Shown here: positions 10,256 to 28,254 of the stretch, one piece after another
Position numbering within the stretch: position 1 is the first letter of the stretch
Layout of the letters: every line of letters begins with the position of its first letter
From: Pirellulales bacterium
Lineage (GTDB): Bacteria > Planctomycetota > Planctomycetia > Pirellulales > JAICIG01
Assembly (NCBI GenBank): GCA_035533075.1
Contig: DATLUO010000104.1
Coordinates: 1-58,748 of the forward strand
DNA: 58,748 nucleotides
Reading direction: 5' to 3'
Position numbers and translations under genes: made by a program
Notes under the pieces: generated by a model
Told to the model about the DNA's origin: nothing
The model's database searches: none
Seen by the model: the letters and a program-made list of their open reading frames with translations, nothing else

Positions 10256-10456
10256 TCATTCAAGCTGGAACCGCACGGGGCGAATCACCACGGTGTCGTC
10301 GACGAGATCGAACGGCTTCGCGTCGGCCAGGATCGCGTTGCAACGTTTTAGCCCTTCGTCGGCGGTTTCGATGGCGGCTTTCAGCGGTTGGATTTGGTTC
10401 TTTAACTGAGCAAGTTCGGCAAGCCGCCGTTGACCGTCGATCAACTCATCAAGCAC
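10256..10456 (-). CDS. Small helical protein coupled to the sigma factor gene
   Basis: A 66-residue frame beginning with GTG and overlapping the last 16 bases of the sigma-factor gene, so it could be translated by coupling. Residues 1-45 are a heptad-like helix (LDELIDGQRRLAELAQLK, then IQPLKAAIETADEGLKR). The C-terminus ends VIRPVRFQLE. It is too short for a normal anti-sigma domain and has no zinc motif or membrane segment. Its position immediately after a sigma factor suggests a partner role. It could also be non-coding. Confidence 0.45.
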   Translation of the reverse strand: MLDELIDGQRRLAELAQLKNQIQPLKAAIETADEGLKRCNAILADAKPFDLVDDTVVIRPVRFQLE

Positions 10457-11025
10457 TTTCTGCTGCGCGGCAAAGCTGGCCAGATCAGCGCGTCGGCCAA
10501 CCGCCGCCGCGCGGCGCTTAATTGGCCGCGCACCGTGGCGGGCGGCAGGTCCAGTATTTGCCCGATGTCAGTCGAGTTCAGGTCGCAGTAATAGCGCAGC
10601 ACAATGGGGTTTCGCAGTTCGGGCGGCAATCGCCGCAAGGCCAGCCGCAGCGCCCGCTGCTCTTCGTTTTCCGCTGCCGCCTGGCTTGCATTGCCGCGCG
10701 ACAGCTCCGTCCATACCGCTTGCAGCTTTTCCCAAACGTTCAGCCAGCTTCGCCGTCGGCGGTGCTGCAAGCGGCAACGGTTGATCGCCACGCGGAACAA
10801 CCAGCGGCGGCAATCCTCCTGGCCGCACGGCAACGACTTGGCTTGATGCGCGGCCAGATAAACATTCTGCAGTACGTCGTCAACTTCGGTTCGTGCCACG
10901 CCCATCGCGGCGATGAGCCGGCGCAACTTGGGTTCGGCCTCTTGCCAGGCGATCAGCAACGTGTCGTCGGGTTCGGCGCGCACCGCATCTCGCCGCCTGC
11001 GGCCGGTGGGCCGGCCCGAAGGCAT
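10441..11025 (-). CDS. ECF-type RNA polymerase sigma factor
   Basis: 194 residues from the ATG at 11025, which has a perfect AGGAGG five bases upstream; the longer upstream frame is not needed. Region 2 covers about residues 18-90 (EVDDVLQNVYLAAHQ, RRWLFRVAINRCR). Region 4 covers about 128-185 (LRRLPPELRNPIVLRYY, then DIGQILDLPPATVRGQLS.ARRRL), the helix-turn-helix that reads the -35. The basic N-terminal extension (GRPTGRRRRDAVR) is unusual. No classical anti-sigma gene is adjacent; only the small helical frame overlaps its 3' end. The large secreted protein is transcribed divergently from the 243-base region upstream. Confidence 0.88.
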   Translation of the reverse strand: MPSGRPTGRRRRDAVRAEPDDTLLIAWQEAEPKLRRLIAAMGVARTEVDDVLQNVYLAAHQAKSLPCGQEDCRRWLFRVAINRCRLQHRRRRSWLNVWEKLQAVWTELSRGNASQAAAENEEQRALRLALRRLPPELRNPIVLRYYCDLNSTDIGQILDLPPATVRGQLSAARRRLADALIWPALPRSRKCLMS

Positions 11026-11268
11026 TGCGACCTCCTGTTTTAGAGCCGCATTCGTCACAGTCGCTTCCCGTGCTCGTGGCCGCCCTAACAAGACAATGCG
11101 CGAGGGTGCCCAAGTGTTTGGCGAACTTCGCCACTTCTCCCAATCGGCCCAGAATTCGCTGTTAAGATGGCATAGTTTCGTCCGGCCTGCCTCATTATAA
11201 TCCCGGCCCTTTCGGGCAGTGTACCCTGCCAGTCTCACCACCCGTTCCATTCGCTTGGGCCAACCGAG

Positions 11269-14200
11269 ATGATCGGACGACGCCCGACAGCATCGCGGCA
11301 GTTGCCGGCTCGCGCCGCGTGCGCGGTGCCGTTGCTACTTGTCTTGGCGCTCGCGCCCGCCGTGGCCTCGGCCGACGAGAGCGACGACGGCGCCCCGCGC
11401 GCGCCCGCCCTTCGCCTGCGCATCGAATGGGGCAGAGGCCTCGCCCGCAAATGGCAGGGCACCCTGGCCCTGAGCGAGGGCGTGCTGTCGAACCCCTCGC
11501 CGCTGGGCATCGAAGCCGACGAACCCGGCTCGATGTGGATCGAAGAAGGCCGCTTATCCGTCAGCCAGCCCAGCGCTCGGCCGTACGACGGCGTCGATGT
11601 CGACGTCGACGCCCCACTCGAGGCCTCGTTGATCGTCGCGCTCTCGCCGGCTGACAATCCGATCAGCGGAACGCCTCGGGAGATTCCCCTCGCGCAGTTG
11701 ATCCATCGCAGGTTCGACGGCCAGCTCGACGACCGCAAGAACGTATTGCGAGTGCTACGCGCGCCGGGAGACAAGCTGCGAGTCACGCTCGACCGCGACG
11801 CCTTGATCTACCAGTCCGACGAGCCGCTCGAAATCGAGGTGACGCCGACCTGTCTTGCCGAGGCCGCCGGCGCCCGACTCCGCTTGCAGGCCCGGCTGAC
11901 GAACGCACTGGACAAGAGCGACGCCGGCGTCCTGGAAAAGGAATGTCAGCTCGACGAGCACGGCTCGTCGCCGCCCGTGGCGTTCTCGCTGCCTCTGCCG
12001 AAGCAAGAGGGCGTCTACGATCTCGATCTCCAGCCGACCCGCCACCGGTTCGGCCTTTGGTCGCCGGTGAGCGGCGGCCGGCGAATCCAATTCGTCGTGC
12101 TCAGCCCCGGTCCGCACTTGCCCCAAGGGGGCAGCGAGCCGCCGGCGGAAACCGTCGTGGAAATCGACCCCGCCAACCCCACCTGGTGGCAGCGATTGCC
12201 GAGCATTCCGATGCTGCCGTCGCTGCGCAGGCCCTTGGGCAGCGGCGATGCCGCCGTCTGGCAGCATTCGCTCGGCAATCTGGTGCAGATTGGCGCCAGG
12301 AACGCCGCGGGCTGGGAGGCCTACCCCTTGCCGATCGATCGGCCGGGCGAACCCCACATCGTCGAAATACAGTATCCCAACGACGTGCCGCAAGTGCTCG
12401 GCGTCAGCATTGTCGAGCCAAACGACACGGCGGTGGTCACGCCGACCGGCCTCGATTCGGGCGTTTACTTGCCCGACGACGGGGCCGAGGTCGAACCGAA
12501 GATGAACCTGCACCGGCTGGTGTTCTGGCCGCGCACCAAGACGCCCCTGCTGCGGCTCGACGGCTCGAAAGCCGTGTATGGCAAAATCCGCGTGCTCGGA
12601 CCGCGTCGTCCGGGCATGGCCGCCGTCTTCGATCGCGACGATTGGCAAAGCCACAGCTCGCTGCCCCGCCGCTTTCCCGCCGGCGATCAGCCGAACGGCC
12701 GACTGCTGGCCGGCTATTACGACCGGCCGCTGTTTGCCGCCAACTTCTCCGCCAATCAGGCGGTCGATCCCATTCACAAGTACCGGCTGGACGACTGGCG
12801 GACCTTCTACGAAGGCGGCAGCCGGCTCGTCGAGTACCTGAACTACGTCGGATACAACGGCCTGATGCTCACCGTGCTGGCCGACGGCAGCGCCATCTAC
12901 CCCAGCGAGCTGCTCTCTCCCACGCCGCGCTACGACACCGGCGCGTACTTCACCACCGGCCAGGATGTCTATCGCAAGGACGTGCTGGAGCTGCTCTTTC
13001 GCCTCTTCGACCGCGAAGGGCTGACGCTCGTTCCCGCACTCGATTTCTCCGCTCCGCTGCCGGCACTCGAGAATTTGCGTCGCGACGGACCCGGCGGCGG
13101 GGGGATCGAACTGGTCGGGCGAGACGGTCAGCCCTGGCTGAAGCACCATCCCCCGCGGCAGCACATCGGCCCCTATTACAATCCGCTCAACGAACAGGTG
13201 CAGACCGCGATGATGGAGGTCGCGCGCGAGTTGGCGCACCGTTACCGTCATCATCCGTCGTTCGGCGGACTGGCCCTGCAGCTTACGGCCGACGGCTACG
13301 CCCAGCTTCCCGGCGACGACTGCGGCTACGACGACGAGACCCTGGCCGCCTTCGAAGCCGCCAGCGGCGAGCGGCTTCCCCCGGCCGACGGCGGCCTGGC
13401 GGGCCGCGTTGCCTGGATCGAAAAGAAAGCCCGGACCCCATGGCTCCAATGGCGGGCAGCCGAGATGACGGCCTTCTACAGCCGCATGCAGACCCAGATC
13501 GCAGCCGAGCGGCCGGGGCTGAAGCTGTATCTGGCCGGGACGGGGCTGTTCGATCGGCCCGAAATGGCGCACAAGCTCCGCCCGGTGCTGAGCCGCGTCA
13601 CCACCAAGAACGAAGAGGCCCTGCTCAGCGTCGGCATCGACCCTCAAGGCCAGGCCAAGCGCGACGACGTGGTCATCATGCGGCCGCAATGGGTGGCTCC
13701 CTTGCAGTCGCTGGCGGCCCAGGCGGTCAACCTGGAACTGAATTTCGACCAGCAGCTCGACCGGCTGTTTGCCGAGCAGCCGGTCACCGCCGCGCTGTTC
13801 TATCACGAACCGCGGGAAAGCCGGCTGAAGTCGTTCGATGCCAAGAACCCGTTCAAGGGCGTGCCGTCGCGCCACCTGGCGCAAGTGGTGCCCTCCGCGC
13901 AACACACGCGGCGTCGCTTCGTTCACGCCGTGGCGACGCTCGATGCCCGGGCCATGTTCGACGGTGGCCGCTTGCTGCCCCTCGGCCAGGAGCACGAACT
14001 GGGGCCCTTGGTGGCGGCCTATCGCGGTTTGCCCAACCTGCCCTTCGCAACGGTCGAGGGCCATTGCCAGCCGGTGACGGTGCGGTCGCTCTCGCACGAC
14101 GGGCGGACCTACGTCTACTTCGCCAACGATTCTCCCTGGAAGGTCGATGTCAGCCTGACGGTCGAGAAGGCGGCCGAATGTACGGTGCGGAGCCTCTATC

Positions 14201-15177
14201 CGGGCCGCCGGGCCACGATTCCTTCCGGCGACGGCTACAAGCAGAATTGGCTGGTGCCGCTGGAACCCTACGATCTCTTGGCCGTCGCCTTCTCCACCGA
14301 AAACGTGAAGCTTTCCGGGGCCGAGGTCCGCCTCGACAGGACAATTGTCGCCCAGCTCGATGCCCGCATTCAAGACCTGACGGAACGCGCCCGCGTGCTG
14401 AAAGAGCCTTTGCCGCTCGACGCACCGGCCAACGGCGACTTCGAGCGGCCCGCGGTGCGCGGCGGCATCTCCGGTTGGGAAAGCGCTCCGGCCGGGGCGC
14501 TGGCACGCCTGGTTCCCGCACAGCAAGGAGAGGTCGTGCTCGACAACCAAGAGCCGTACGCCGGCCAGCAGTGTGTGAAGCTTTCGGCCCGGGGCGGCAA
14601 GGTGACGCTGGCCAGTGCCGCGTTTCCCGCTCCGGCCACGGGTTGGCTTTCGGTCTCGGTGTGGATGCGCGCCAAACACGCCGGCCCGCCGCCGAAGCTT
14701 ACGTTAGCGCTGGAGGGCACCGTGTCGGGCAACGTCTATCGCCGGCAGGAGAGCATACCGGACGCGCGCAACGCAGTCCGATTGGGCGACGAGTGGAAAA
14801 TGTACAGCTTTGTGTTTGACAACCTGCCGACCGTGGACATCTCGCCCTTGCGGTTGCGGTTCACGTGCGACGGCAACGGCGAGGTCTGGCTCGACGACGT
14901 GCGGACGTTCGATCTGGAAAAGCGGGAAGGCAACGATCTGGTGACCTTGGTCTGGTTGGCCATTCAACGGGCCGGGGCCAAGCTGGAGAAGAAAGAGTAC
15001 GCCGATTGTTGGCAGTTGCTCGACGGCTATTGGCCCCGTTATCTGCGCACCTATGTGCCCCTGACGCAGGAACCGATCGCCAACCATCCGCGTCCGCGGC
15101 GTGCGGCCCCCGCCGCGCCGCCGCCCAAGACGGGACTTTATGAGCGCGTGAAAGACAGCCTCCGCTGGTGGCGGTGA
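11269..15177 (+). CDS. Large secreted protein with glycoside-hydrolase-like barrel and C-terminal carbohydrate-binding-like domain
   Basis: 1302 residues. A signal peptide (about 1-36, ending VASADES) precedes beta-rich regions to about residue 490. Residues about 505-860 look like a (beta/alpha)8 barrel of the GHL10/family-10-like type (FYEGGSRLVEYLNYVGYNGL, then GLTLVPALDFSAPLP). Residues about 1054-1215 resemble a CBM4/9-type jelly roll, beginning NGDFERP and containing EPYAGQQCVKLS and WLDDVR. Catalytic residues cannot be assigned. It probably acts on polysaccharide outside the cytoplasm or at the envelope. No strong ribosome site precedes the ATG. Two very long overlapping frames in other phases are shadows created by GC bias. 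Confidence 0.75.
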   Translation: MIGRRPTASRQLPARAACAVPLLLVLALAPAVASADESDDGAPRAPALRLRIEWGRGLARKWQGTLALSEGVLSNPSPLGIEADEPGSMWIEEGRLSVSQPSARPYDGVDVDVDAPLEASLIVALSPADNPISGTPREIPLAQLIHRRFDGQLDDRKNVLRVLRAPGDKLRVTLDRDALIYQSDEPLEIEVTPTCLAEAAGARLRLQARLTNALDKSDAGVLEKECQLDEHGSSPPVAFSLPLPKQEGVYDLDLQPTRHRFGLWSPVSGGRRIQFVVLSPGPHLPQGGSEPPAETVVEIDPANPTWWQRLPSIPMLPSLRRPLGSGDAAVWQHSLGNLVQIGARNAAGWEAYPLPIDRPGEPHIVEIQYPNDVPQVLGVSIVEPNDTAVVTPTGLDSGVYLPDDGAEVEPKMNLHRLVFWPRTKTPLLRLDGSKAVYGKIRVLGPRRPGMAAVFDRDDWQSHSSLPRRFPAGDQPNGRLLAGYYDRPLFAANFSANQAVDPIHKYRLDDWRTFYEGGSRLVEYLNYVGYNGLMLTVLADGSAIYPSELLSPTPRYDTGAYFTTGQDVYRKDVLELLFRLFDREGLTLVPALDFSAPLPALENLRRDGPGGGGIELVGRDGQPWLKHHPPRQHIGPYYNPLNEQVQTAMMEVARELAHRYRHHPSFGGLALQLTADGYAQLPGDDCGYDDETLAAFEAASGERLPPADGGLAGRVAWIEKKARTPWLQWRAAEMTAFYSRMQTQIAAERPGLKLYLAGTGLFDRPEMAHKLRPVLSRVTTKNEEALLSVGIDPQGQAKRDDVVIMRPQWVAPLQSLAAQAVNLELNFDQQLDRLFAEQPVTAALFYHEPRESRLKSFDAKNPFKGVPSRHLAQVVPSAQHTRRRFVHAVATLDARAMFDGGRLLPLGQEHELGPLVAAYRGLPNLPFATVEGHCQPVTVRSLSHDGRTYVYFANDSPWKVDVSLTVEKAAECTVRSLYPGRRATIPSGDGYKQNWLVPLEPYDLLAVAFSTENVKLSGAEVRLDRTIVAQLDARIQDLTERARVLKEPLPLDAPANGDFERPAVRGGISGWESAPAGALARLVPAQQGEVVLDNQEPYAGQQCVKLSARGGKVTLASAAFPAPATGWLSVSVWMRAKHAGPPPKLTLALEGTVSGNVYRRQESIPDARNAVRLGDEWKMYSFVFDNLPTVDISPLRLRFTCDGNGEVWLDDVRTFDLEKREGNDLVTLVWLAIQRAGAKLEKKEYADCWQLLDGYWPRYLRTYVPLTQEPIANHPRPRRAAPAAPPPKTGLYERVKDSLRWWR

Positions 15178-15359: not shown

Positions 15360-16022
15360 ATGTCGGACTCCGGCCCGCCCATCTCCGATCGGCAGTTGAT
15401 GCGCCAGGCGCAAGAGGGCGACCGCGCCGCCTTCGCCGAAATCGTCCGCCGCTATCGGCCGGCCCTGCTGCGCGTGGCTCAAAGCCGGCTGGGCCGCCCC
15501 GATTGGGCCGAAGACGCCGTGCAAGAGACGCTGCTGGCCGCCTTCCAATGGCGCGGCAGCTACCGCGAAACGAACAACTTCCGCACCTGGCTCTGGACGA
15601 TCCTCTTGAACCAGTGCCGCCGCTCATGGACGGGCAGGCTGCGGCGGCCTCGCGTCTACGGTTTCGACGACCAGCCAGCCTCCGAGGTCGAGCCGGCGGT
15701 TTATCAGGCCAGCATCGAGCGCGGCGAAGCGCCGCCTTGGCAACGGCTGCTGGCGCAGGAACGGTCGGAGCTGCTGGAATCGCTGTTGAAAGATTTGCCG
15801 GCGGCGCAGGCCGACGCGTTGCGGCTGCGTTTCTTCGGCGGACTGAAATTCGACGAAATTGCCGAGACCATGCAGTGCAGCCTGGGAACGGCGAAAAACC
15901 GCGTTAAATGGGGTCTGGTGCGGCTTGCGGAAATGGTCCGCCAGGCGGAACAAGAGTGCGCCGCTCCGAGAACACGGCGGCAAGACGGCCCGCCCGACAG
16001 CCGGGCCGCCGATGGGCATTGA
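15360..16022 (+). CDS. ECF RNA polymerase sigma factor
   Basis: 220 residues. Region 2 spans about 10-85 (LMRQAQEGDRAAFAEIVRRY, DWAEDAVQETLLAAFQ, FRTWLWTILLNQCR). Region 4 spans about 130-190 (LLKDLPAAQADALRLRFFGG, FDEIAETMQCSLGTAKNRVK). It is followed 15 bases later by an anti-sigma gene and then a Ser/Thr kinase on the same strand, so the three form a likely operon. The sigma factor is presumably held by the membrane anti-sigma and released on a signal. The start is the ATG that opens MSDSGPPISD; a longer frame upstream is arginine-rich and unlikely. Confidence 0.93.
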   Translation: MSDSGPPISDRQLMRQAQEGDRAAFAEIVRRYRPALLRVAQSRLGRPDWAEDAVQETLLAAFQWRGSYRETNNFRTWLWTILLNQCRRSWTGRLRRPRVYGFDDQPASEVEPAVYQASIERGEAPPWQRLLAQERSELLESLLKDLPAAQADALRLRFFGGLKFDEIAETMQCSLGTAKNRVKWGLVRLAEMVRQAEQECAAPRTRRQDGPPDSRAADGH

Positions 16023-16037
16023 GCGAGAGTGACGGTT

Positions 16038-16712
16038 ATGATCCATTGCGACGAAGTCTTCGACATTCTGACCCGCGGTCCGTTCCCCACCGGTGCGCCT
16101 TCCGACGGCATCGTCGAGTCGCACCTGAACCATTGCGACGCTTGCCGCCAGTTGGCCGAAGCGCTGCGGCCCGCCATCGAGTTGCTGCAGGAGGCGATCG
16201 GCCCCGAAGAAAGCGGCAGCTTGCCTTGCTATGGCGGCGCGGCCGAGCCCTGGAGCGGGCCTTCCGCCGCATCTCTCAAGACGAAGCAAGCCGTCGCCAC
16301 ACGACGAGCGCGGCAGCCGGAAGCGTTGCCGACCGCGCCGGGCGTTTGGCCTTGGCGATCTGCCGCTCGATTTGCCGCCGCGGCCTGCGTCGGTCTGGTG
16401 CTGGCCGGCTTGCTGCGACAGGTCGTTCTGCAAGGTGCGATGGCCCGGCGCGGCATGCCGCCCGCCGTGGCCGTCGCCGCGAGTTGGCGATTGGATACCG
16501 ACGCGCGCCAATGGGCACAAGAGCTGTCGCTGGGCGGTCCGTGCCGGCAACCGGTGGCCGGGCTGACGCTGGCCGCCGCCCGTCCGGGACAGGCCGCGGA
16601 AGATGCCCTGCAGCTTGCCTGTTGCCTGGGTTGTCATGCCGCCCGCGGCAATTCGCTGTTGCCGGCCGCGCGCCTCGGCGGTTTTGTACAAGCGTGTCAA
16701 GCATGTCATTAA
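16038..16712 (+). CDS. Membrane anti-sigma factor with zinc-finger motif and two C-terminal CxxCH motifs
   Basis: 224 residues from the ATG at 16038; a GTG nine bases earlier is possible. Residues 29-36 are HLNHCDAC, the H-x3-C-x2-C zinc motif of ZAS-type anti-sigma domains. One membrane segment lies at about 109-131. The outer part ends with two heme-attachment-type motifs, CLGCH (196-200) and CQACH at the extreme C-terminus (220-224). With the N-terminus inside, the CxxCH pair would lie outside, where cytochrome c maturation works. It directly follows its cognate-looking ECF sigma gene. A heme- or redox-based sensor controlling sigma release is an inference; the pair could instead bind metal or form disulfides. 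Confidence 0.82.
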   Translation: MIHCDEVFDILTRGPFPTGAPSDGIVESHLNHCDACRQLAEALRPAIELLQEAIGPEESGSLPCYGGAAEPWSGPSAASLKTKQAVATRRARQPEALPTAPGVWPWRSAARFAAAACVGLVLAGLLRQVVLQGAMARRGMPPAVAVAASWRLDTDARQWAQELSLGGPCRQPVAGLTLAAARPGQAAEDALQLACCLGCHAARGNSLLPAARLGGFVQACQACH

Positions 16713-16728
16713 GCATGAGGGTTCTCGC

Positions 16729-17748
16729 TTGCCTGCCTCAACGTTTCAACGCTGCGCGGTTGCCAGCGGTCTGGTGACGCAAGATGACCTGGAGCAGGCC
16801 CGGCAGGCCCTGCGAGCTGGAAAATCGCCCACGCGGCAGGCTCTCACCGACGACGACCTGGCCATCCAGCTCATCGCCATGGGGCGGGTGAATTCGTGGC
16901 AGGCGACACAGCTGGCCGCCGGACGCAGCACGTTCACTCTCGGCCCTTATCGCATCGTCGATTCGCTCGGCAAGGGGAGCACCGGCGACGTCTATATGGC
17001 CGAGCATTCGCTGATGGGCCGCATTGTGGCCATCAAGGTTTTGCCGCGGCGAATTTCATCGCCCGAGGCGATCGAAAAGTTCAATACGGAGATCCGCACG
17101 CAGGGGCAGTTGGACCACAACCACCTGGTGCGGGCCTTCGATGCGGGCCACCATCGCAACGTTCACTTTCTGGTGATGGAATACGTGCCCGGCACCAACC
17201 TGCGAAAGCTGGCGCGCCGGCAAGGGCAGCTTTCCATGCGTCGTGCCGCCGCTCTCGTCGCTCAGGCGGCCGAGGGGCTGGCCTACGCGCATGGCCGCGG
17301 CTTGACGCATCGCGACGTGAAGCCGAGCAACCTGTTGGTGACGCCGGAAGACCAGGTCAAGCTTTCCGACTTGGGTCTGGCCGGCTTCTTCAGCCACGCG
17401 CCTTCGGCAAACACCGACGGCAAGGCCGCCGCTCGCGCCGCCGACTTTCTTGCGCCGGAGCAGATTCAGCAGCCGGGCACGTTTTCTCCCGCGACCGACC
17501 TGTATGCCCTGGGTTGCACGCTGTACTACGCGGTGACCGGCAAAGTCCCCTTTCCGGGACCCACGTTGACGGCCAAGCTGGACGGGCATCTTCACGCCCT
17601 GCCGCGGCACCCACGGCTGCTGAACGCCTCGCTGAGCGAGGAGTTTGTGGAGTTGGTCGGCGATCTGATGGCCAAGGATCCGCGCGAGCGGCTTGCCGAC
17701 GCCGACGCGGTTGCGACGCGGTTGAAGGAGGTGGCCGGTCAAACCTGA
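16729..17748 (+). CDS. Ser/Thr protein kinase (Hanks type)
   Basis: 339 residues from a TTG start, chosen because GAGGG lies seven bases upstream and no ATG or GTG is available between the anti-sigma stop and the conserved region. The N-terminal helical segment (10-65) has the layout seen before many planctomycete kinases. The kinase domain spans about 73-338: glycine loop GKGSTGDVY (81-89), lysine in VAIKV (103), HRDVKPSN (194-201), DLG in place of DFG (214-216), then LAPEQI. It ends with the kinase fold and has no membrane segment, so it is cytoplasmic. It follows the anti-sigma gene by 16 bases and may act on the sigma or anti-sigma. Confidence 0.9.
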   Translation: MPASTFQRCAVASGLVTQDDLEQARQALRAGKSPTRQALTDDDLAIQLIAMGRVNSWQATQLAAGRSTFTLGPYRIVDSLGKGSTGDVYMAEHSLMGRIVAIKVLPRRISSPEAIEKFNTEIRTQGQLDHNHLVRAFDAGHHRNVHFLVMEYVPGTNLRKLARRQGQLSMRRAAALVAQAAEGLAYAHGRGLTHRDVKPSNLLVTPEDQVKLSDLGLAGFFSHAPSANTDGKAAARAADFLAPEQIQQPGTFSPATDLYALGCTLYYAVTGKVPFPGPTLTAKLDGHLHALPRHPRLLNASLSEEFVELVGDLMAKDPRERLADADAVATRLKEVAGQT

Positions 17749-18782: not shown

Positions 18783-19455
18783 TCAGCTCAGCAGTTCGAG
18801 CGTGCCCGTGGCGGGCGGCGGCGGGCTGTTGCGGTATTCGGGCAGATTGATGAGCTCGATCTGGATGTCCGCATCGGTCGCGCCTTGCTCGAACTGCTGC
18901 ACGTAACCGGCCAGCTCGGCGGCGGTCGGATTGCGGCCCAGATACTGCTGGAAGAAATGGGTCGTCAGGTTCTGGAAGTTCTCGGTGCCGTATTCGAAGC
19001 CGTTGACGACGTCGACCAACGTCATCTGGCCCGAGCTGAGATTATTCGTCCAGTATTGCAGTCCGCCGCTGTCCGGTTCGCGGTTGAGCAGCCGCTGGTA
19101 GAGCGCCGTCACCCAGGCGGCGTTGGACGAGAGATCCGGTCTGGCGGCCGCCGCCGAGGCATAGAACTCAGGCGAGCTGATCATGCCGCTGATGACTTGC
19201 TCCGGCCCTCCGCTGTCCTTCCACACCTGGTCCCAATAGGCGAGGCCCGCGGTGTCGGCCGGCCGCAACAGGAACTGTTGGTAATAGCCTTCGATAATCG
19301 GGTCGAGCCGCTCGTCGCTCTCAAAAATGCCTTGGGCCACCGTGCCATAGGGCTGCCCGGCGCCGACCTGTTGCGTCCAGTAGGCCAGTCCGCCCGCATC
19401 GGGGGCCCGGCCCAACACCTGCTGATAAAGCTTATCGACGATCGCCGCCTGCTCG
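18783..19455 (-). other. DUF4214 module region of the giant protein
   Basis: At least three consecutive units share the pattern LY...LGR.PD..GL.YW followed by a helix and F..S.E. The third is LYQRLLNREPDSGGLQYW; a diverged fourth is FFQQYLGRNPTAAEL. Together they form the helical C-terminus. Confidence 0.75.
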
Positions 19456-22400
19456 GACGTGATGGTGACCGTCGCCACGTTGCTCACGGCAACGCCATTG
19501 GTCACCTGATAGGTGAAACTGTCGCTTCCCTGGAAGCTGGCCGAGGGAGTGTAGGTGAACGAGCCGTCGGCGTTGAGCCGCACGCTGCCGCTGGAGGGCG
19601 GCGAAACCAGTCGAGCCGACAGCGGCAGCCCACTGGGATCGTGGTCGCCGACCAGCATGCCGGAACCGGCCGCGACGGATGCCGCGGCGCCGGTGCGCAG
19701 CAGGTAGGAATGGTTGACGGCCGTCGGCTGGCCCGCCACCTCGATCTGGAACGTCTGCACCGGCGAGGTGTCGCTGCCGCCGTGCAGCGTGCCGCCGCTG
19801 TTGTACAAGGCGACGGCAATCGTGGCCGTGCCGAACTGGTTGGCGGCGGGCGTGAAGCTGAGAATGCCGGTTTTCGAGTCGACCGTCGGCGGGCTGCTGA
19901 ACAAGTTGGGGTTGGTCGCCGAAAGGATGCTGGTCGCAAAGTTGAGCGTGTCGGTGGCGGGGTCGTCTTTCCCGTCGACGATCTTGCCGGCCCAGGGCGC
20001 GCTTTGCGGCCCGGCGTTCATGACCACTTGCAGGTTGCCGCCGGGTGTGAACGACGGCGGCTCGTTCGATTGATAAACGGTGACCGAGATCTTGTCATCG
20101 GCCGACGCGCCGGCATTGTCGGTGGCCTTCAAATCGATCGTCGCCGTGCCGTACTGGTCGGGCAAAAAGTGCAGCGTCAGCGTGGCGGTCGAGGGGTCGC
20201 TGCCCGACAGGCTGGCCGTCACCAGGTTGGGCGTATCGCTGGCCGCCGACAAGCGGAGCTGGTCGCCAAGGTGCAGATCGACGTCGACATCGTCGAACAC
20301 CTTCGAGACGGCGGCGTTGCTGAACACGAAGTCGGCCGCGTTCTCATTGACCGATACGTCCGGAAGCCCTTGCGCCTTAGTGGGAGGGTGATCGACCTGG
20401 TCGATCTCGATCTGGAAGGTGACCGGGTGCGACGAAACCACGTTCGCTCCCAGCGCGCCGCCGGTCTCTTGGGCCACGACCGTGACCGTCGCAGTGCCGA
20501 AGACGTGTGTGCCGGGCGTGAAGGTGAGCGTGCCGTCGGCGTGGATCGACGGCTGGCCGGTGGAGGCGAACAGCGGTTGGCCCGTAGTGGCTACCGAGGT
20601 CGCCAAGTAGCTGATGGTCTCGTTTTGCTGGTCGCCGTCGATGCCGGGACTGGCCGCGGCAAATCCGCTGAAGCTGGCCTTGCCGGAGTCTTCATTCCAC
20701 ACGGCTTTGGGTGTGAGCGACGTGAACGAGGGCGGTTGGGGGACAAAATTGGCAGTGATGGTGAAGGTCTGCGGCTGCGAGGCGTCGACGCCGCCGTTGG
20801 CTGCGCCCCCGTTGTTTTCGGCGGTCACGGTGACCGTGGACGTGCCGAACACGTTGGGATTCAGCGTGTAGGTGAGGTTGCCGGACGCATCGATGGCCGG
20901 CTGTCCCGTCTGGGTAAACAGGGCCCCGTTGGTCACGGGCTTGACCGTGAACTGAACGGACTCGTTCGCTTGGTTCGCGGCCGGCGGATAGGTGGACGAA
21001 GGGCTGATCTGGGTGGCAAAGCCGACCACGGTCTGGGCCCCGCTGTTTTCATTCGCGGCCGGCGGGTTTGGGTTGGCGGTCACAAAACTGGGCGGCTGGT
21101 TCACGAAATTCACCGTGATGGTGAAGGCGTTCTTGCCGGAGCTGTCGCGGCCGCCGTTGGTTGTGCCGCCGCTGTTGTGCAACTGGGCGACGACGTGCGC
21201 CACGCCCGATGCGTTCGGCGCGGGCGTGTATGTAAGATCGCCCGTGACGGGGTCGATTTGCGGGGGCGTCGAGAACAGCGAGGGATTGTCGTTGACGACC
21301 GTGAAATTGAGCGTCTCGTCGATCTGGTTGGGCGCCCCAGGGTTGATGTTGGTCGCCCATGCTTTGACCGTCTGCTGGACGGAAGCGGTGCTTTCGTCAA
21401 CCGGGGGCGGATTGCCCAGGGCGGTCACCTCGTAGTAATACGTGCCGCTGGCGAGCGTTCCGCCGCTGGCGGAGGCGACCAGCGACGTCTGCACCGGCGC
21501 CGGCAAACCGGTGGGATTGGTGGTGGGCGGCAGCGCGACGATGCCGCCGCCCGTATCGACAAAGCTGGTCGCCGTGCCGCCGACCGTGCCGACCAGCATG
21601 TTTTCCTGACCGGAGGACGTGCCGCGGTAAATGTCGTATCCGGTCGCGCCGCTGAGGGGCATCCAGTTCACGGTGACGGCGCCCGTGGGAGGGGTTGCGG
21701 AAGAGGCGATCACGGCGTTTTCTTCCTTGCTGACCGCGGACTGGCCGCCGATGAAGCTGGGCGGCTGGTTGACGAACGCCACCGCGATCGTAAACGATTG
21801 CGCGGCCGAAGTATCGTGACCGCCGTTTTGGGTGCCGCCATCATCGTGCAGTGCGACGTTGACGGTGGCCGTGCCATCGACGTTCGTGGCGGGCGTGAAG
21901 GTAAGGTCGCCCTTCGTGGGGTCGATCTGCGGCGCGACGGCAAACAGCGAGGCGTTGTCGGTCGTGACGACAAAGTTGAGCGCCTGCGATGCCTCGTTCG
22001 GCGCGCCGGCGTTCATGCCGCTGGCCCAGCCACTGAAGGTTTGCCGCCCGGAGTTTTCCGAAACTTGCACGCTGGGCCCGCCGCTGAAGAAGGGCGCCTG
22101 GTTGACCGGATTGACCGTGATCGCGAATTTTTGCAACCGCGACGTATCGTTGCCGCCGTTGGCGGTGCCGCCGTTGTCGTGCAAGGCGACGCTCACGTTC
22201 GCCACTCCGTTGGCATCGGGAGCGGGAGTATACGTGAGGTCGCCCGTGGCGGGATCGATGGCCGGCAACACCGAAAACAAGGCGTTGTTGTCGGTCGTGA
22301 CTGTGAAATTGACTTTCTGATACGACTCGTCCGGCGGCCCCGCGTTGATGCTCGTGGCCCAGCCAGAGACACGTTGGCTGCCGGCGTTCTCATCGACGGC

Positions 22401-25400
22401 CGGCGGCGGACTGCTGGGAATCGTAAAGCTGGGCGCCTGGTTGACAAACGTGACGGAGATGAGGAAAGTCGCCGGCGCCGAGGTATCGATGCCGCCGTTG
22501 GCGGTCCCTCCGCTGTTGTGCAGCGCGGCGGTGACGTTCGCCTGGCCGCTCATGCCGGGTATGGGTGTGAAGGTCAGATCGCCGCTGGAGCTGTCGATGG
22601 CGGGCGGCACCAAGAACAGGCCGGCGTTGTCGGTGCTGATGATAAAGTTCAACAATTGCCCAGCTTGGTTCGGGGGCCCGTTGCTGATATTCGTGGCCCA
22701 GTTGGGAACAGCCACTTGGCCAAAGCTGCCGCTCAACGTTTCGTCCGAACCGGGAGTGAACGAGGGCGGTTGGTTGGACGCGGTGACCGTGATCGTGAAC
22801 GTCTGCGGCGCCGAGGTGTCGACGCCGCCGTTGGCGGTGCCGCCGCTGTTCTGTAGCCGCACCGTCACGTCGGCGATGCCGGTGGCATAAACGGCGGGCG
22901 TGTAGTTCAGGTTGCCCGTCGCGGGGTCGATGCTCGGCAGCGCTGAGAACAGGCTATCGTTGTCGGTGGTGACGATGAAGTTGACCGACTGGGACCGGGC
23001 GACCTGATTGGGCGGTCCCACGCTGATGTTGCTGGCCCAGCCGGCCACCGTTTGCGGCCCCGGCGTCTCGTGAACGCTCTGGTTGGGGCCCGCCGTAAAG
23101 CTCGGTGGCTGGTTGACGAACGTGACGCTGATGGTAAACGTCTGGACCGCCGAAGTATCGGTGCCGCCGTTGGCGGTGCCGCCGTTGTCGTGCAATTTCA
23201 CGCTGACGTGCGCCACGCCGTCTTCATCGGCGGCGGGCGTGTAGGTGAGCTTGCCGGTCACCGGGTCGATCGACGGCAGCGTCGGAAACAGCGCCGAGTT
23301 GTCGGTGGTCACGACGAAGTTGAGCGTCTGGCTGGCCTCGCTGGGCGGGCCGGCGCTGATGTTGCTGGCCCAGCCGGCGATGACCTGCGTGCCGGCGTTT
23401 TCCAGCACGGCTTGATTGCCGCCTTCCGTGAAGCTCGGCACATGATTGACAAAGTTCACCGTGATCGTGAACGTTTGCGGCAGCGACGTATCGTTGCCGC
23501 CGTTGGCAGTCCCGCCGCTGTTGTGCAACTCGACTGTGACATTTGCCACGCCGAACTCGTCGGGGGCCGGAGTATAGGTGAGCGTGCCGGTGGTCGGATC
23601 GATGGCGGGCGGCACCGAAAACAGATTCGCGTTGTCGGTGGTGATCGTGAAATTGACCGTCTGACCCGCTTGCTGCTGTTGCAACGAGCCGGGGCTGATG
23701 TTTTTGGCCCAGCCGGTCACCGCCTGCGCCCCGGAGTTCTCGTCGACTGCCACATCGGGTCCGGCGGTGAACGTGGGAGGCTGGTTGACGAAGTTCACCG
23801 TAATACTGAACGTCTGCTGCGGCGAGAGGTCGTTGCCGCCGTTGGCCGTTCCACCGTTGTCCCGCAGTTCGACGGTCACGTTGGCCACGCCACTCACGTC
23901 GAGCGCCGGCGTGTAGGTCAGCGTGCCGGTGGTCGGATCGATGGCGGGCAGCGACGAAAACAGCGAGTCGTTGTCGGTGTTGACGATGAACGTGAGCTGC
24001 TCGCCGGCCTCGCTCGGCGGACCCGCCAGGATCTGCGTGGCCCAGTTGGCCACCGATCGTGGGCCGGAGTTCTCGTTGGTGGTCTGGTCGCTGCCGGCGA
24101 CGAAGCTCGGCGGCTGGTTGACGAACAGCGCGTTGATGTTGAAGACCTGGGGCGACGAAGTATCGTTGCCGCCGAAGGCCGTGCCGCCGTTGTCGTGCAA
24201 TTCGACGTTCACGACCGCGGTGCCCCAGACGTTGGGCGCCAGCGTGTAGGTGAGCTTGCCCGTCGAGTCGATCGCGGGCGCCACCGAGAACAAGGCGGTG
24301 CTGCCGGCAGGCACGTTGCTGCTGCCGTTGAGGCTGTTGATGGTATACGTGACGATGAAATTGAGCGTCTGGCCGGCTTCGTCGGGCGGGCCGGGACTCA
24401 GGTTGGTGGCCCACTGCACGGGGCCGTGTGCGCCGGAGTTTTCCAGCACGGCCTGGTCCCTCCCCGGAGTGAACGTGGGAGCGTGGTTCACGCCGACCGA
24501 GATCACGAACGTCTGCGGCGCCGACGTGTCGGACCCGCCGTTGGCCGTGCCGCCGTTGTTGTGCGCCACGACAGTGATGTCCGCCGTGCCGCCCGCGCCG
24601 GGCGTGGGAGTGTAGGTGAGCGTGCCTGTGGCGTCGATGGACGGCTCGACCGAGAACAAGCTGGGATTGTCGTTGGTGATTTGGAAGGTGAGCACCTCGT
24701 TGTTTTCGCCCGGCGGTCCCGGCACGATATTGCTTAGGAAGCCGGGCACGGTCTGGGCCGGCGCATTTAGCGGCAGCGACTGCTGCGGGCCCTGGATCGT
24801 AAAGCTGGGCGCCGCGTTCACCAGCGCGCCGAAGGTGTTGCCCAACCGCAACACGAGAAGGTCCTGCTCGCTGGCGGCACCCACGGTGAAGGGGCCAAAC
24901 TTCGTCGGCCCGCTACCCAGCACGCCCGTCACGTAAACGTTGCCGAAAGTGTCCACTGCGATGGCGTTGCCTTGATCTTCGCCGGCGCCGCCGTAACTCT
25001 CCGCGCTGACGAGGTTTCCTTTCTTGTCGAGCTCGGAAATGAAAACGTTGTACAGAGCGCTGCCCGAGGTCAAATTGTCCGTGGGCGAACCGTTGGGATT
25101 GAAGTTGGCTGTCCCGGAATAGCTGCCGGTCGTGTAAACGTTGCCGCTGGAGTCGACGGCGATGCCTTGTCCTTCCACATCGTAGGCCTTGCCGCCGCCA
25201 ACCGCCTTGCCCCAAACAAAGTTGCCGTTGCCGTCCAGCTTCGAGATGAACTGAGAATTAATGCCCGTGACGGCATCAGTAGAATTGTTCGGATCGAGTT
25301 GGGCATCGAGCCCAAAGTAGCCGGTGGTGTAGACGTTGCCCTGCGCATCGACCGCGATGCGATTAAGCGGTTGCACGACGTCAAAGATGATTTGACCGCT

Positions 25401-28043
25401 GGCGAACTTGCTGGTGAGCGCTTTCGCCCAGACGACGCTCCCGCTGGACGAACTCAGCTTGGCGACGAAGTCGTTGGGCGATGAACCCGCGGCACTGGTG
25501 AGCTTGGTGCTTCCGAACGTCGCCGTCGCTTCGAAAATACCCGTGATGACCGGGTTCCCGGCAGGATCAACGGCTGCGGAGTCGGCCATATCGTCTGATG
25601 CCCCGCCGTAATTGACCGCCCATTGCGCATTGCCGCCCGGCGAATACTTGACGACGAAGACATCGCTGCCGCCCGCGCTGGTCAGCGTCGTGGATGTCGG
25701 GGTGTTGACGGTGGCGCTCCCCGTGAAGCCACCCACGACATAAGCGTCACCCAAAGGGTCGACGGCCAGTCCGGAGTTGAAGTCCTCGGCGCCGGAAATC
25801 ACCGTGGTCGCCCAGAGCGGATTGCCGTTGCTGTCAAACTTGGCCAAATACGCCATATTGGCGTTTTTGGCGTCGCTGAGCGCGAGCGGGCCGATGGTCG
25901 TGTTTCCCGTCAGCACGCCGGACAGATAGAGGTTGCCAAAGCCGTCCAGCTTCAGCGTCGGGGCATACTGCCAGAGGTCGCTCACCATTTGCTGGACCCA
26001 CAGCAAGCTGCCGTCGGGAGCATACTTGGCGATGAAATCGTTGGGAGCGTAGGTCGTCGAAAGCGTCACCCCTCCGGCCCCTGAGCCGAACGTCGTGGTC
26101 CCGTCGAAATTGCCGGCCACGTAGATGTCGCCGAGGCTGTCGGCGACAATCGAGCTTCCGTAGGTGAATCCGATCGACGGGATTCCAAAAGCCAGGCCGA
26201 AGTTGTTCGTCACGACCTGCTCGAACCCGGCGTTGACGATCACCGACTGCCCCGGCGAGACGGTGATCGCGCCGCTATCGCCGGTCAGGGGCGAGACGTT
26301 GCTGGCGATCGTCGGATCGGTGCCCACGTTTTCCGTCGCGAAGGTGTCGCCTGGCGGAAGCGAGACCTGCACGTAATAGCTCTGGTTGACCGACACGCCG
26401 TTGAAGCTGTACAAGCCCAGCGAGTCCGTCACCGTGGTGGCGACCTGCGTGCCGCTGCCCGGCGTGCCGGTGAATAACGCCACGGGCACGCCGCCCACTC
26501 CCGCTTCCGTCGACTCGCGGATGTTGTCGCCGTTTTGGTCGTTCCATACGACGCCGCCGATCTGGTTATGAAAATAATTGAGGCCCCAGAGAAAGCCGTC
26601 CCAGATGGCGTTGGCTGGCACATTGTCGGCGGGACCGTTTCCTGGATTGAAGTTGATCGTGTTCGAGTACGATCCGCAGGCGTAGACATAGGCGCCGCCG
26701 GCGGCCGAGGCGGTGGCAACGCCGTAGCCTTGGTCGGTACCGTTTTCACCCGCGGTTGCGACCCAGAGAAAACTCCCTTGGCTGGTCAGCGCCGAGACAT
26801 AAACATCGTCGCCGCCGGCGCTGGTTCGCAGTTGGCTGCCGTTGGGATCGAAATTGGCGATGCCGTCATAGTAACCGACCGTGTATACGTTCCCGCTGGC
26901 ATCGGTCGCGATGTCCTCGGGCTGCAAGCCGCCGATGCCAATGCCGGTGTTGTGCAGATCGGCGGCCCAATCGAAGTTGCCGGACGAATCGAGCTTGAGC
27001 ACGAAAGCATCGTGAAAGACGAAATCGGCCGAGGTATTGAGGTCGCCGCCGTTGGGATCGAGCTCCACGGGGCCGCCAAAGGTTCCCGTGTTATAGATGT
27101 TGCCTTGCGCGTCCACGGCGATTCCGTAGCCTTCGGCGCTGCCGTCGCCGGCGGTGGTATTGGCGTTGAGCTTCTTGGCCCAAACATAGTTGCCGTTGGT
27201 GTCGAGCTTGAGCAGGAAGTCGGTGGAGAAAAACGTAGTGAGGTCGTGAGTTCCGGGGGCCGCTGGATCGAAGTCGACCTGGGAAAACGGACTGGAAAAC
27301 TCGCCGGTGACGTAAGCGTTGCCTTGCGCATCGACGGCGATGCCTCGACCATCTCCGCTTCCCTTGCCGGTGCCGGTGTCGCCGTAGGCGTTGACCCACA
27401 GCAGAGCGCCGGTAGGGTCGAATTTCGCCACCAGAATGTCGCCGGTTTTGGTAGTCAACGTTTTCGCGTTTTGCCCGGTGCCAATCGTCGCCGTGCCGTT
27501 GAAGTGGCCGGTGATGTAGGCGTTTCCCGAACTATCGGCGGCCACGCCATACGCCACGTCATCGTCGCTTCCGCCGAACGATTCGGCCCAGACAAAGTTT
27601 CCGTTACTGTCGAGCTTGGCTAGATAGCCGTCGTTTCCGCCGGCCGAAACAAGCGCGGTGCTGCCGAACTTGGCCGGGCTGCCGGCGCCATTGCTGAAGT
27701 TGCCGGCAATGTAGATGTCGCCGCTGTTGTCAACGGCCAGGCTCTCTTTCTGATTGATGCCCGATGAAGCCGTGTACGGCGACGACCAAATCTCCGTGCC
27801 GTCGGGGGCGAATTTGTAAACCGCGTCCGTGGCAAGTTCATAGACATTGCCGGCCGCGTCGGCGCGGATTGCAAACGCCTGCTCGGCGTTCGGACCCGGC
27901 CCCGCGATGGCAAAACTGAGGTTTGCGGCCAACATTGCCCGTTGCTCGAGCTGCTCGCCCCGGATGCGGCGTTTTGGCCATGCCGATACTGTTCGCCGAC
28001 GCGACGATGCGCGCGAGCGCGCACGACGGAAGAAGGATGCCAT
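18783..28043 (-). CDS. Giant secreted multidomain surface protein with DUF4214 tail
   Basis: 3086 residues from the ATG at 28043. A basic N-terminus ends in EQLEQRAMLAA, the planctomycetal LExR-type export leader. Residues about 40-490 and 610-1070 are beta-propeller-type repeats (SBBP-like, DSNGNFVWA, VDAQGNVYTTG). Between them, about 494-600, is an SdrD-B-like domain (IGGVVWNDQNGDN). About 1075-2770 hold fourteen cadherin/Ig-like repeats (DNGGTANGG.DTS.PQTFTITV). A further Ig-like domain with SVAAGSGMLVGD and GSFTYTP follows, then DUF4214 units (LYQQVLGRAPDAGGLAYW and similar) from about 2865 to the end. The role is probably adhesion or matrix. DUF4214 is often found at the end of exported calcium-binding-type proteins. 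No protease or glycosidase motif was seen. Confidence 0.9.
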   Translation of the reverse strand: MASFFRRARSRASSRRRTVSAWPKRRIRGEQLEQRAMLAANLSFAIAGPGPNAEQAFAIRADAAGNVYELATDAVYKFAPDGTEIWSSPYTASSGINQKESLAVDNSGDIYIAGNFSNGAGSPAKFGSTALVSAGGNDGYLAKLDSNGNFVWAESFGGSDDDVAYGVAADSSGNAYITGHFNGTATIGTGQNAKTLTTKTGDILVAKFDPTGALLWVNAYGDTGTGKGSGDGRGIAVDAQGNAYVTGEFSSPFSQVDFDPAAPGTHDLTTFFSTDFLLKLDTNGNYVWAKKLNANTTAGDGSAEGYGIAVDAQGNIYNTGTFGGPVELDPNGGDLNTSADFVFHDAFVLKLDSSGNFDWAADLHNTGIGIGGLQPEDIATDASGNVYTVGYYDGIANFDPNGSQLRTSAGGDDVYVSALTSQGSFLWVATAGENGTDQGYGVATASAAGGAYVYACGSYSNTINFNPGNGPADNVPANAIWDGFLWGLNYFHNQIGGVVWNDQNGDNIRESTEAGVGGVPVALFTGTPGSGTQVATTVTDSLGLYSFNGVSVNQSYYVQVSLPPGDTFATENVGTDPTIASNVSPLTGDSGAITVSPGQSVIVNAGFEQVVTNNFGLAFGIPSIGFTYGSSIVADSLGDIYVAGNFDGTTTFGSGAGGVTLSTTYAPNDFIAKYAPDGSLLWVQQMVSDLWQYAPTLKLDGFGNLYLSGVLTGNTTIGPLALSDAKNANMAYLAKFDSNGNPLWATTVISGAEDFNSGLAVDPLGDAYVVGGFTGSATVNTPTSTTLTSAGGSDVFVVKYSPGGNAQWAVNYGGASDDMADSAAVDPAGNPVITGIFEATATFGSTKLTSAAGSSPNDFVAKLSSSSGSVVWAKALTSKFASGQIIFDVVQPLNRIAVDAQGNVYTTGYFGLDAQLDPNNSTDAVTGINSQFISKLDGNGNFVWGKAVGGGKAYDVEGQGIAVDSSGNVYTTGSYSGTANFNPNGSPTDNLTSGSALYNVFISELDKKGNLVSAESYGGAGEDQGNAIAVDTFGNVYVTGVLGSGPTKFGPFTVGAASEQDLLVLRLGNTFGALVNAAPSFTIQGPQQSLPLNAPAQTVPGFLSNIVPGPPGENNEVLTFQITNDNPSLFSVEPSIDATGTLTYTPTPGAGGTADITVVAHNNGGTANGGSDTSAPQTFVISVGVNHAPTFTPGRDQAVLENSGAHGPVQWATNLSPGPPDEAGQTLNFIVTYTINSLNGSSNVPAGSTALFSVAPAIDSTGKLTYTLAPNVWGTAVVNVELHDNGGTAFGGNDTSSPQVFNINALFVNQPPSFVAGSDQTTNENSGPRSVANWATQILAGPPSEAGEQLTFIVNTDNDSLFSSLPAIDPTTGTLTYTPALDVSGVANVTVELRDNGGTANGGNDLSPQQTFSITVNFVNQPPTFTAGPDVAVDENSGAQAVTGWAKNISPGSLQQQQAGQTVNFTITTDNANLFSVPPAIDPTTGTLTYTPAPDEFGVANVTVELHNSGGTANGGNDTSLPQTFTITVNFVNHVPSFTEGGNQAVLENAGTQVIAGWASNISAGPPSEASQTLNFVVTTDNSALFPTLPSIDPVTGKLTYTPAADEDGVAHVSVKLHDNGGTANGGTDTSAVQTFTISVTFVNQPPSFTAGPNQSVHETPGPQTVAGWASNISVGPPNQVARSQSVNFIVTTDNDSLFSALPSIDPATGNLNYTPAVYATGIADVTVRLQNSGGTANGGVDTSAPQTFTITVTASNQPPSFTPGSDETLSGSFGQVAVPNWATNISNGPPNQAGQLLNFIISTDNAGLFLVPPAIDSSSGDLTFTPIPGMSGQANVTAALHNSGGTANGGIDTSAPATFLISVTFVNQAPSFTIPSSPPPAVDENAGSQRVSGWATSINAGPPDESYQKVNFTVTTDNNALFSVLPAIDPATGDLTYTPAPDANGVANVSVALHDNGGTANGGNDTSRLQKFAITVNPVNQAPFFSGGPSVQVSENSGRQTFSGWASGMNAGAPNEASQALNFVVTTDNASLFAVAPQIDPTKGDLTFTPATNVDGTATVNVALHDDGGTQNGGHDTSAAQSFTIAVAFVNQPPSFIGGQSAVSKEENAVIASSATPPTGAVTVNWMPLSGATGYDIYRGTSSGQENMLVGTVGGTATSFVDTGGGIVALPPTTNPTGLPAPVQTSLVASASGGTLASGTYYYEVTALGNPPPVDESTASVQQTVKAWATNINPGAPNQIDETLNFTVVNDNPSLFSTPPQIDPVTGDLTYTPAPNASGVAHVVAQLHNSGGTTNGGRDSSGKNAFTITVNFVNQPPSFVTANPNPPAANENSGAQTVVGFATQISPSSTYPPAANQANESVQFTVKPVTNGALFTQTGQPAIDASGNLTYTLNPNVFGTSTVTVTAENNGGAANGGVDASQPQTFTITANFVPQPPSFTSLTPKAVWNEDSGKASFSGFAAASPGIDGDQQNETISYLATSVATTGQPLFASTGQPSIHADGTLTFTPGTHVFGTATVTVVAQETGGALGANVVSSHPVTFQIEIDQVDHPPTKAQGLPDVSVNENAADFVFSNAAVSKVFDDVDVDLHLGDQLRLSAASDTPNLVTASLSGSDPSTATLTLHFLPDQYGTATIDLKATDNAGASADDKISVTVYQSNEPPSFTPGGNLQVVMNAGPQSAPWAGKIVDGKDDPATDTLNFATSILSATNPNLFSSPPTVDSKTGILSFTPAANQFGTATIAVALYNSGGTLHGGSDTSPVQTFQIEVAGQPTAVNHSYLLRTGAAASVAAGSGMLVGDHDPSGLPLSARLVSPPSSGSVRLNADGSFTYTPSASFQGSDSFTYQVTNGVAVSNVATVTITSEQAAIVDKLYQQVLGRAPDAGGLAYWTQQVGAGQPYGTVAQGIFESDERLDPIIEGYYQQFLLRPADTAGLAYWDQVWKDSGGPEQVISGMISSPEFYASAAAARPDLSSNAAWVTALYQRLLNREPDSGGLQYWTNNLSSGQMTLVDVVNGFEYGTENFQNLTTHFFQQYLGRNPTAAELAGYVQQFEQGATDADIQIELINLPEYRNSPPPPATGTLELLS
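19730..24820 (-). repeat. Fourteen tandem cadherin/Ig-like protein repeats
   Basis: Each unit is about 110 residues and begins NQPPSF or a variant, then ENSG..TV.GWA..I..GPP, LNF.VTTDN..LFS, PAIDP.TG.LTYTP and HDNGGTANGG.DTS. Repeats 3-9 are the most alike; the later ones (11-14) diverge. The DNA is similar but not identical between units, so the array is old rather than a recent expansion. Confidence 0.85.
21379..21705 (-). other. Fibronectin-III-like insertion within repeat 10
   Basis: Repeat 10 starts normally (NQPPSF, EENAV) but is interrupted by about 109 residues resembling an FN3 unit (VTVNWMPLSGATGYDIYRG, then SGTYYYEVTAL). It then resumes with QQTVKAWATNINPG. Confidence 0.65.
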
Positions 28044-28254
28044 GATCGAGGCCCGCTCTGGATGTATCGTGATGAGATCTTGCCCGAAAGTTCGTTGCCG
28101 CACCTGGCAACGTGCCGACGGTTCCCACCCCCCTGCGTAGACCGCCCGCTAAGGGGCTGTTGTAGGTTGCCTCTACGGCAAAGTCAAGAAAATTCCACGC
28201 TGATACGCTGATTGGCGTAGGGACGGCCCAGGAAGGTGGAAGGCCATCCTCCGC

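Follow-up and report, generated by a model that had tools for sequence, protein, structure and literature searches.

A planctomycete membrane anti-sigma factor with conserved CxxCH motifs in its outer domain, a candidate heme c sensor

Planctomycetes encode ECF sigma factors in great number, and the signals to which these respond are mostly unknown. A locus in a Pirellulales bacterium (assembly GCA_035533075.1, contig DATLUO010000104.1) raises the question of what an anti-sigma factor might sense when the part of it predicted to lie outside the membrane carries two CxxCH motifs, and whether a Ser/Thr kinase encoded next to it belongs to the same system. We address both questions by comparing this locus, in its window (the whole stretch of 58,748 nucleotides that was analysed), with those of related genomes.

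The sigma factor and its membrane partner

In the window, the genes for the sigma factor, the anti-sigma factor and the kinase lie head to tail on the plus strand. The first (15360..16022, ATG start) encodes an ECF sigma factor of 220 aa with Pfam Sigma70_r2 and r4_2 matches, and its match to the NCBIfam sigma70-ECF superfamily exceeds the cut-off. The second (16038..16712, ATG start, with an alternative GTG at 16029) encodes a membrane ZAS-type anti-sigma factor of 224 aa with a di-CxxCH outer domain, and the third (16729..17748, TTG start) a Hanks-type Ser/Thr kinase (Pkinase E 2e-50), a neighbour that probably lies outside the module. Reading of the open reading frames, plus Pfam for the sigma factor and the kinase, confirms this arrangement as originally predicted; the H-x3-C-x2-C motif, the single membrane span, the CLGCH motif and the C-terminal CQACH motif attributed to the second gene are likewise all present in its 224-aa product. 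Elsewhere in the window, a second ECF sigma gene (10441-11250, minus strand) is divergent from the gene of a GHL10 glycosyl-hydrolase-like large protein (11269-15177), and a repeat-rich protein of 3106 aa, probably a surface protein, is encoded at 18783-28103 on the minus strand.

The cytoplasmic ZAS zinc ligands of the anti-sigma factor (C4 and H29-x3-C33-x2-C36, encoded within 16047..16145) are invariant in alignments A1, A2 and A3, the last of which comprises 39 double-motif homologues, and are modelled by AF2 with a pLDDT of ~90. The window protein matches no Pfam family, zf-HC2 (PF13490) included at E <=1; of 21 family members, eight have weak zf-HC2 matches with E values no higher than 0.1, the lowest being 0.0014. 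A transmembrane helix follows at residues 106-137 (16353..16448; AF2 helix, pLDDT ~74-91), and the corresponding hydropathy peak is present in every homologue. This one predicted span separates the ZAS residues from the CxxCH motifs; the positive-inside bias is weak, and since the ZAS domain must contact the sigma factor, we infer that the CxxCH tail lies outside the cytoplasmic membrane. In having an N-terminal Cys followed by H-x3-C-x2-C, a single span and a gene directly downstream of that of an ECF sigma factor, the protein resembles known ZAS transmembrane anti-sigma factors, from which the present family differs by the invariant CxxCH of its outer domain and by a zf-HC2 match that is absent (window protein) or weak (members). 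CxxCH is not a general feature of the ZAS-like proteins of the window genome, as none of its readable zf-HC2 proteins contains the motif.

Conservation of the CxxCH motifs beside the sigma factor

The first motif, C196-L-G-C-H200 (16623..16637), and the second, C220-Q-A-C-H224 at the very terminus of the protein (16695..16709), are predicted heme c sites. Only 2 of 200,000 shuffles of the window outer domain produced two CxxCH by chance. Both motifs are conserved at 100% in A3, including the His that follows each CxxC, and C196, C199, H200, C220, C223 and H224 are exactly the set of invariant outer residues. Just 8 of the 87 outer columns reach at least 90%, the other two being cysteines missed by the original prediction, C169 (16542..16544; 92%) and C195 (16620..16622; 95%), the latter immediately 5' of motif 1 so that the region reads CC-x2-CH. 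The other outer columns have a mean top-residue frequency of 31%, and once the eight are set aside the sequences share a median pairwise identity of 15%. The CxxCH motifs thus appear to be under selection in an outer domain that has otherwise drifted.

Of 58 related genomes, 25 contain homologues of the anti-sigma factor, and further ones turned up in named records from Pirellulales and from other planctomycetes, among them Blastopirellula marina DSM 3645. The family spans two planctomycete orders of the same class: that of the window (Pirellulales in named records) and that of a sister family, f21, which we take to be Gimesia-like. The sigma gene lies directly upstream of the anti-sigma gene in 31 of ~40 loci.

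A survey anchored on the sigma factor, in which only the sigma was searched for and the next gene was then read, avoided selection on the anti-sigma. Among the 33 same-order sigma orthologues (E < 1e-30, readable neighbour required), the next gene encodes a ZAS protein with two CxxCH in 32 and with four in one. Members linked to the sigma but devoid of CxxCH number zero in the window's order. In f21, the gene after the sigma encodes a ZAS protein with a single CxxCH at 16 of 19 loci; the remaining three, all from one genus, have no ZAS partner. The number of motifs therefore varies in whole units of 1, 2 and 4. Two anti-sigma factors (L125 and L126), too diverged to be found by the first anti-sigma search of their genomes, both keep CC-x2-CH and C-x2-CH. 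Wherever the locus could be read in a close relative, both motifs are retained beside the same sigma group. Relatives lacking the pair, the finding named in the original prediction as speaking against it, did not appear where the sigma is present, all 33 same-order loci carrying two or four CxxCH, so that the objection fails there.

Several loci depart from this arrangement. The four-motif protein (L187 of genome G659, 231-1463, minus strand), adjoining the same sigma, has a longer outer tail with extra His residues and looks tetraheme. In genus g46 (L155, L163, L164) the sigma orthologue stands alone, with no anti-sigma gene downstream. Five homologues have no outer domain (L028, L047, L050 and L051 of family f6, plus L089), and the sigma adjoins none of them; the four f6 proteins end just past the membrane span, each has the same small gene downstream of it, PilZ-like by sequence reading, and a Bcp-like peroxiredoxin lies beside three of them. 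Finally, four genomes (G010, G018, G027 and G044) keep a double-CxxCH protein without a close sigma beside it or elsewhere, and double-CxxCH anti-sigma-like proteins of genomes devoid of the sigma are those of L042, L046, L048 and L039. The double-CxxCH protein can therefore outlive its sigma, and may bind another sigma or do something else in these genomes.

Heme attachment and the competing explanations

Whether the outer motifs could carry heme depends in part on the host. The window genome encodes a cytochrome c synthase in which ResB and CcsA (Cytochrom_C_asm) are fused in one ORF of 1215 aa (G000:C238). Synthases of this type (CcsBA) need only the CXXCH thiols and the His, and hemylate an 11-mer peptide (PMC8112865), which makes attachment feasible even at a CxxCH at the very end of a protein. 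A comparable family of heme c sensors, in which heme has been confirmed, shows 99% conservation of CXXCH (PMC12889525).

Matches to profiles point in the same direction: Cytochrome_C7 is matched by 4 of 21 members (best 1.8e-4) and Paired_CXXCH_1 by 4 of 21, at the opposite end of the protein from the zf-HC2 matches, and the NCBIfam and PDB matches of the outer tail are mostly multiheme cytochromes, a comparison that is partly circular because CxxCH drives it and repeats of this motif generally match such profiles. The window protein itself matches neither Paired_CXXCH_1 nor Cytochrome_C7, and the member matches are weak, L187 and L125 falling below the Cytochrome_C7 cut-off. AF2 modelled the fold of the outer domain with low confidence (~50) and Foldseek gave no match to it; Pfam scans found no sCache_heme/DUF3365 match, and this poor model gave no Cache-like fold match. 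No conserved His or Met that could serve as second axial ligand was found among the homologues, the window outer domain having no other His, and a search for the outer domain in other proteins gave no convincing case of reuse. The proposal of a heme- or redox-sensing anti-sigma factor gains strong comparative support from the pair of motifs kept beside the sigma and from the counts of 1, 2 and 4, with covalent heme itself predicted from sequence.

The extra cysteines bear on what the motifs may ligate. A single extra outer Cys, upstream of the motif as C169 is, is present in 16 of 16 single-motif proteins and two in 41 of 47 double-motif ones, that is, about one per CxxCH, giving totals of three outer cysteines in the single-motif group and six in most double-motif members. 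Some periplasmic c-type heme sensors, such as Tll0287, use His/Cys ligation (PMC12889525), and one extra Cys per motif fits both a distal Cys for each heme, as in Tll0287, and Cys3-His metal sites, so that the ratio does not decide between them. The predicted heme sites may thus have His/Cys ligation or open coordination, or the motifs may serve a zinc or thiol alternative.

The main mechanistic rival accepts the heme and changes what it reports. The outer domain would monitor cytochrome c assembly or heme supply: a tail left without heme would be unfolded and degraded, and the sigma would be freed when heme or CcsBA runs short. That almost nothing beyond CxxCH and two Cys is conserved would be expected of a bait for CcsBA, which recognises the motif alone (PMC8112865), and the missing distal ligand is also in keeping with it. 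However, a bait needs no extra conserved Cys, yet about one per motif is present, and nothing in the neighbourhood connects the locus with heme or cytochrome genes, so we regard this explanation as unlikely, if worth keeping in mind.

Binding of zinc or another metal in place of heme, with one Cys3-His site formed by each CxxCH and its extra Cys, would account for the count of extra cysteines in both motif classes. Nevertheless, genus g9 (L041/L180, L044) has lost one or both extra Cys and keeps both full CxxCH, L187 has expanded to four motifs, and members match cytochrome families rather than zinc-ribbon ones at the tail end. Moreover, a Cys and a His that are direct neighbours, as in CxxCH, seldom coordinate a single zinc. 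A metal site of this kind is, in our judgement, improbable.

A thiol-disulfide switch, in which the outer cysteines would form and break disulfides directly with no cofactor, is suggested by the even number of six in most double-motif members and has a precedent in redox-active anti-sigma factors such as RsrA, but disulfides have no need of the 100% conserved His after both CxxC, and the three cysteines of the single-motif group are an odd count; this makes the switch very improbable.

Least probable of all is a three-gene unit in which the kinase would phosphorylate the sigma or the anti-sigma: its start lies 16 bases past the anti-sigma stop, so cotranscription in the window may occur, and kinase control of an ECF sigma has a precedent in PknS-EcfK of Xanthomonas (PMC13147305), but the kinase adjoins the pair in no relative examined. 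This holds for the closest relative, G001, and for all the others; in five relatives, the best homologues of the kinase (52-55% identity) are encoded on other contigs. The kinase thus falls outside the conserved module; we rejected it as a member, and the original suggestion that it modifies the pair is not supported. Jogler 2012 and Wiegand 2020 are said to link planctomycete ECF sigma groups to Ser/Thr kinases; the window resembles such groups in its adjoining kinase and differs from them in that the adjacency is not conserved in relatives.

In the rest of the neighbourhood, no gene other than those of the sigma and the anti-sigma is kept from one family to another; near the locus, a TPR protein and a two-component pair recur solely within some families. 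In two sister-family genomes (L127, L128) genes close to the pair resemble, by reading of their sequences, those of tetrahydromethanopterin C1 metabolism (Fae, MtdB, beta-RFAP synthase), and a link to formaldehyde through these genes was considered and dropped, as they are not conserved beyond those two loci. Upstream regions share no ECF-type motif indicative of an autoregulatory promoter. A sigma-70-like TTGC..CAxAAT box was detected upstream in 7 of 49 loci (~1 expected). Eight loci, all from one family, have a GTATC..GCGCTAT box.

A proposed sensor and its relation to known systems

Taking these results together, we consider it probable, on the evidence of sequence comparison, that the protein is a heme c sensor anti-sigma factor which controls its sigma across the membrane in a two-gene signalling module. 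The N-terminal ZAS domain would keep the ECF sigma bound on the inner side of the membrane, and the C-terminal tail outside would be a small c-type cytochrome domain. CcsBA would attach heme to each CxxCH, that is, two in the window protein, one in the sister family and four in one relative. The His of each motif would be the proximal ligand of the heme iron, and the distal side would be occupied by a conserved outer Cys or would be an open site. The state of the heme iron could then respond to redox potential, to the flow of electrons or to a gas, for example NO, and the resulting change would weaken the grip on the sigma, or expose the anti-sigma to proteolysis, so that the sigma would be freed.

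Such a sensor would have partial counterparts. The sCache_heme/DUF3365 sensors (Geobacter GSU0582 and GSU0935) share a CxxCH heme site and the coupling of an extracytoplasmic sensor to a signalling output, but they have Cache/PAS-like folds and are found on chemoreceptors, histidine kinases and GGDEF/EAL proteins, or stand alone, whereas the present sensor would be a small tail on an anti-sigma factor, with no Cache match and with 1, 2 or 4 motifs. The multiheme cytochromes of the Cytochrome c7 and Paired_CXXCH_1 families likewise have two CxxCH some ~17-30 residues apart, and some members match them weakly; unlike these, the present domain has no conserved distal His, is carried by an anti-sigma factor and misses the cut-offs where these are given. 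ZAS anti-sigma factors and extracytoplasmic heme c sensors are thus each known already. We found no description of a heme c or CxxCH anti-sigma factor in the literature searched, a set that lacked the main papers on the ECF groups of planctomycetes, so the combination may well be undescribed.

On balance, we favour the view that these proteins form an anti-sigma family with a minimal c-type cytochrome sensor of 1, 2 or 4 hemes, each possibly His/Cys-ligated, through which extracytoplasmic redox state or NO would act directly on ECF-dependent transcription. For this anti-sigma factor, the chemistry of the sensor would be readable from its sequence. The variation in motif number among relatives (0, 1, 2 and 4) offers a natural series for relating heme count to signalling, and because some relatives have finished genomes, among them that of the named species Blastopirellula marina, testing would not need a metagenome. 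The membrane protein would then probably act as a switch through which redox or gas conditions on the outer side of the membrane influence gene expression.
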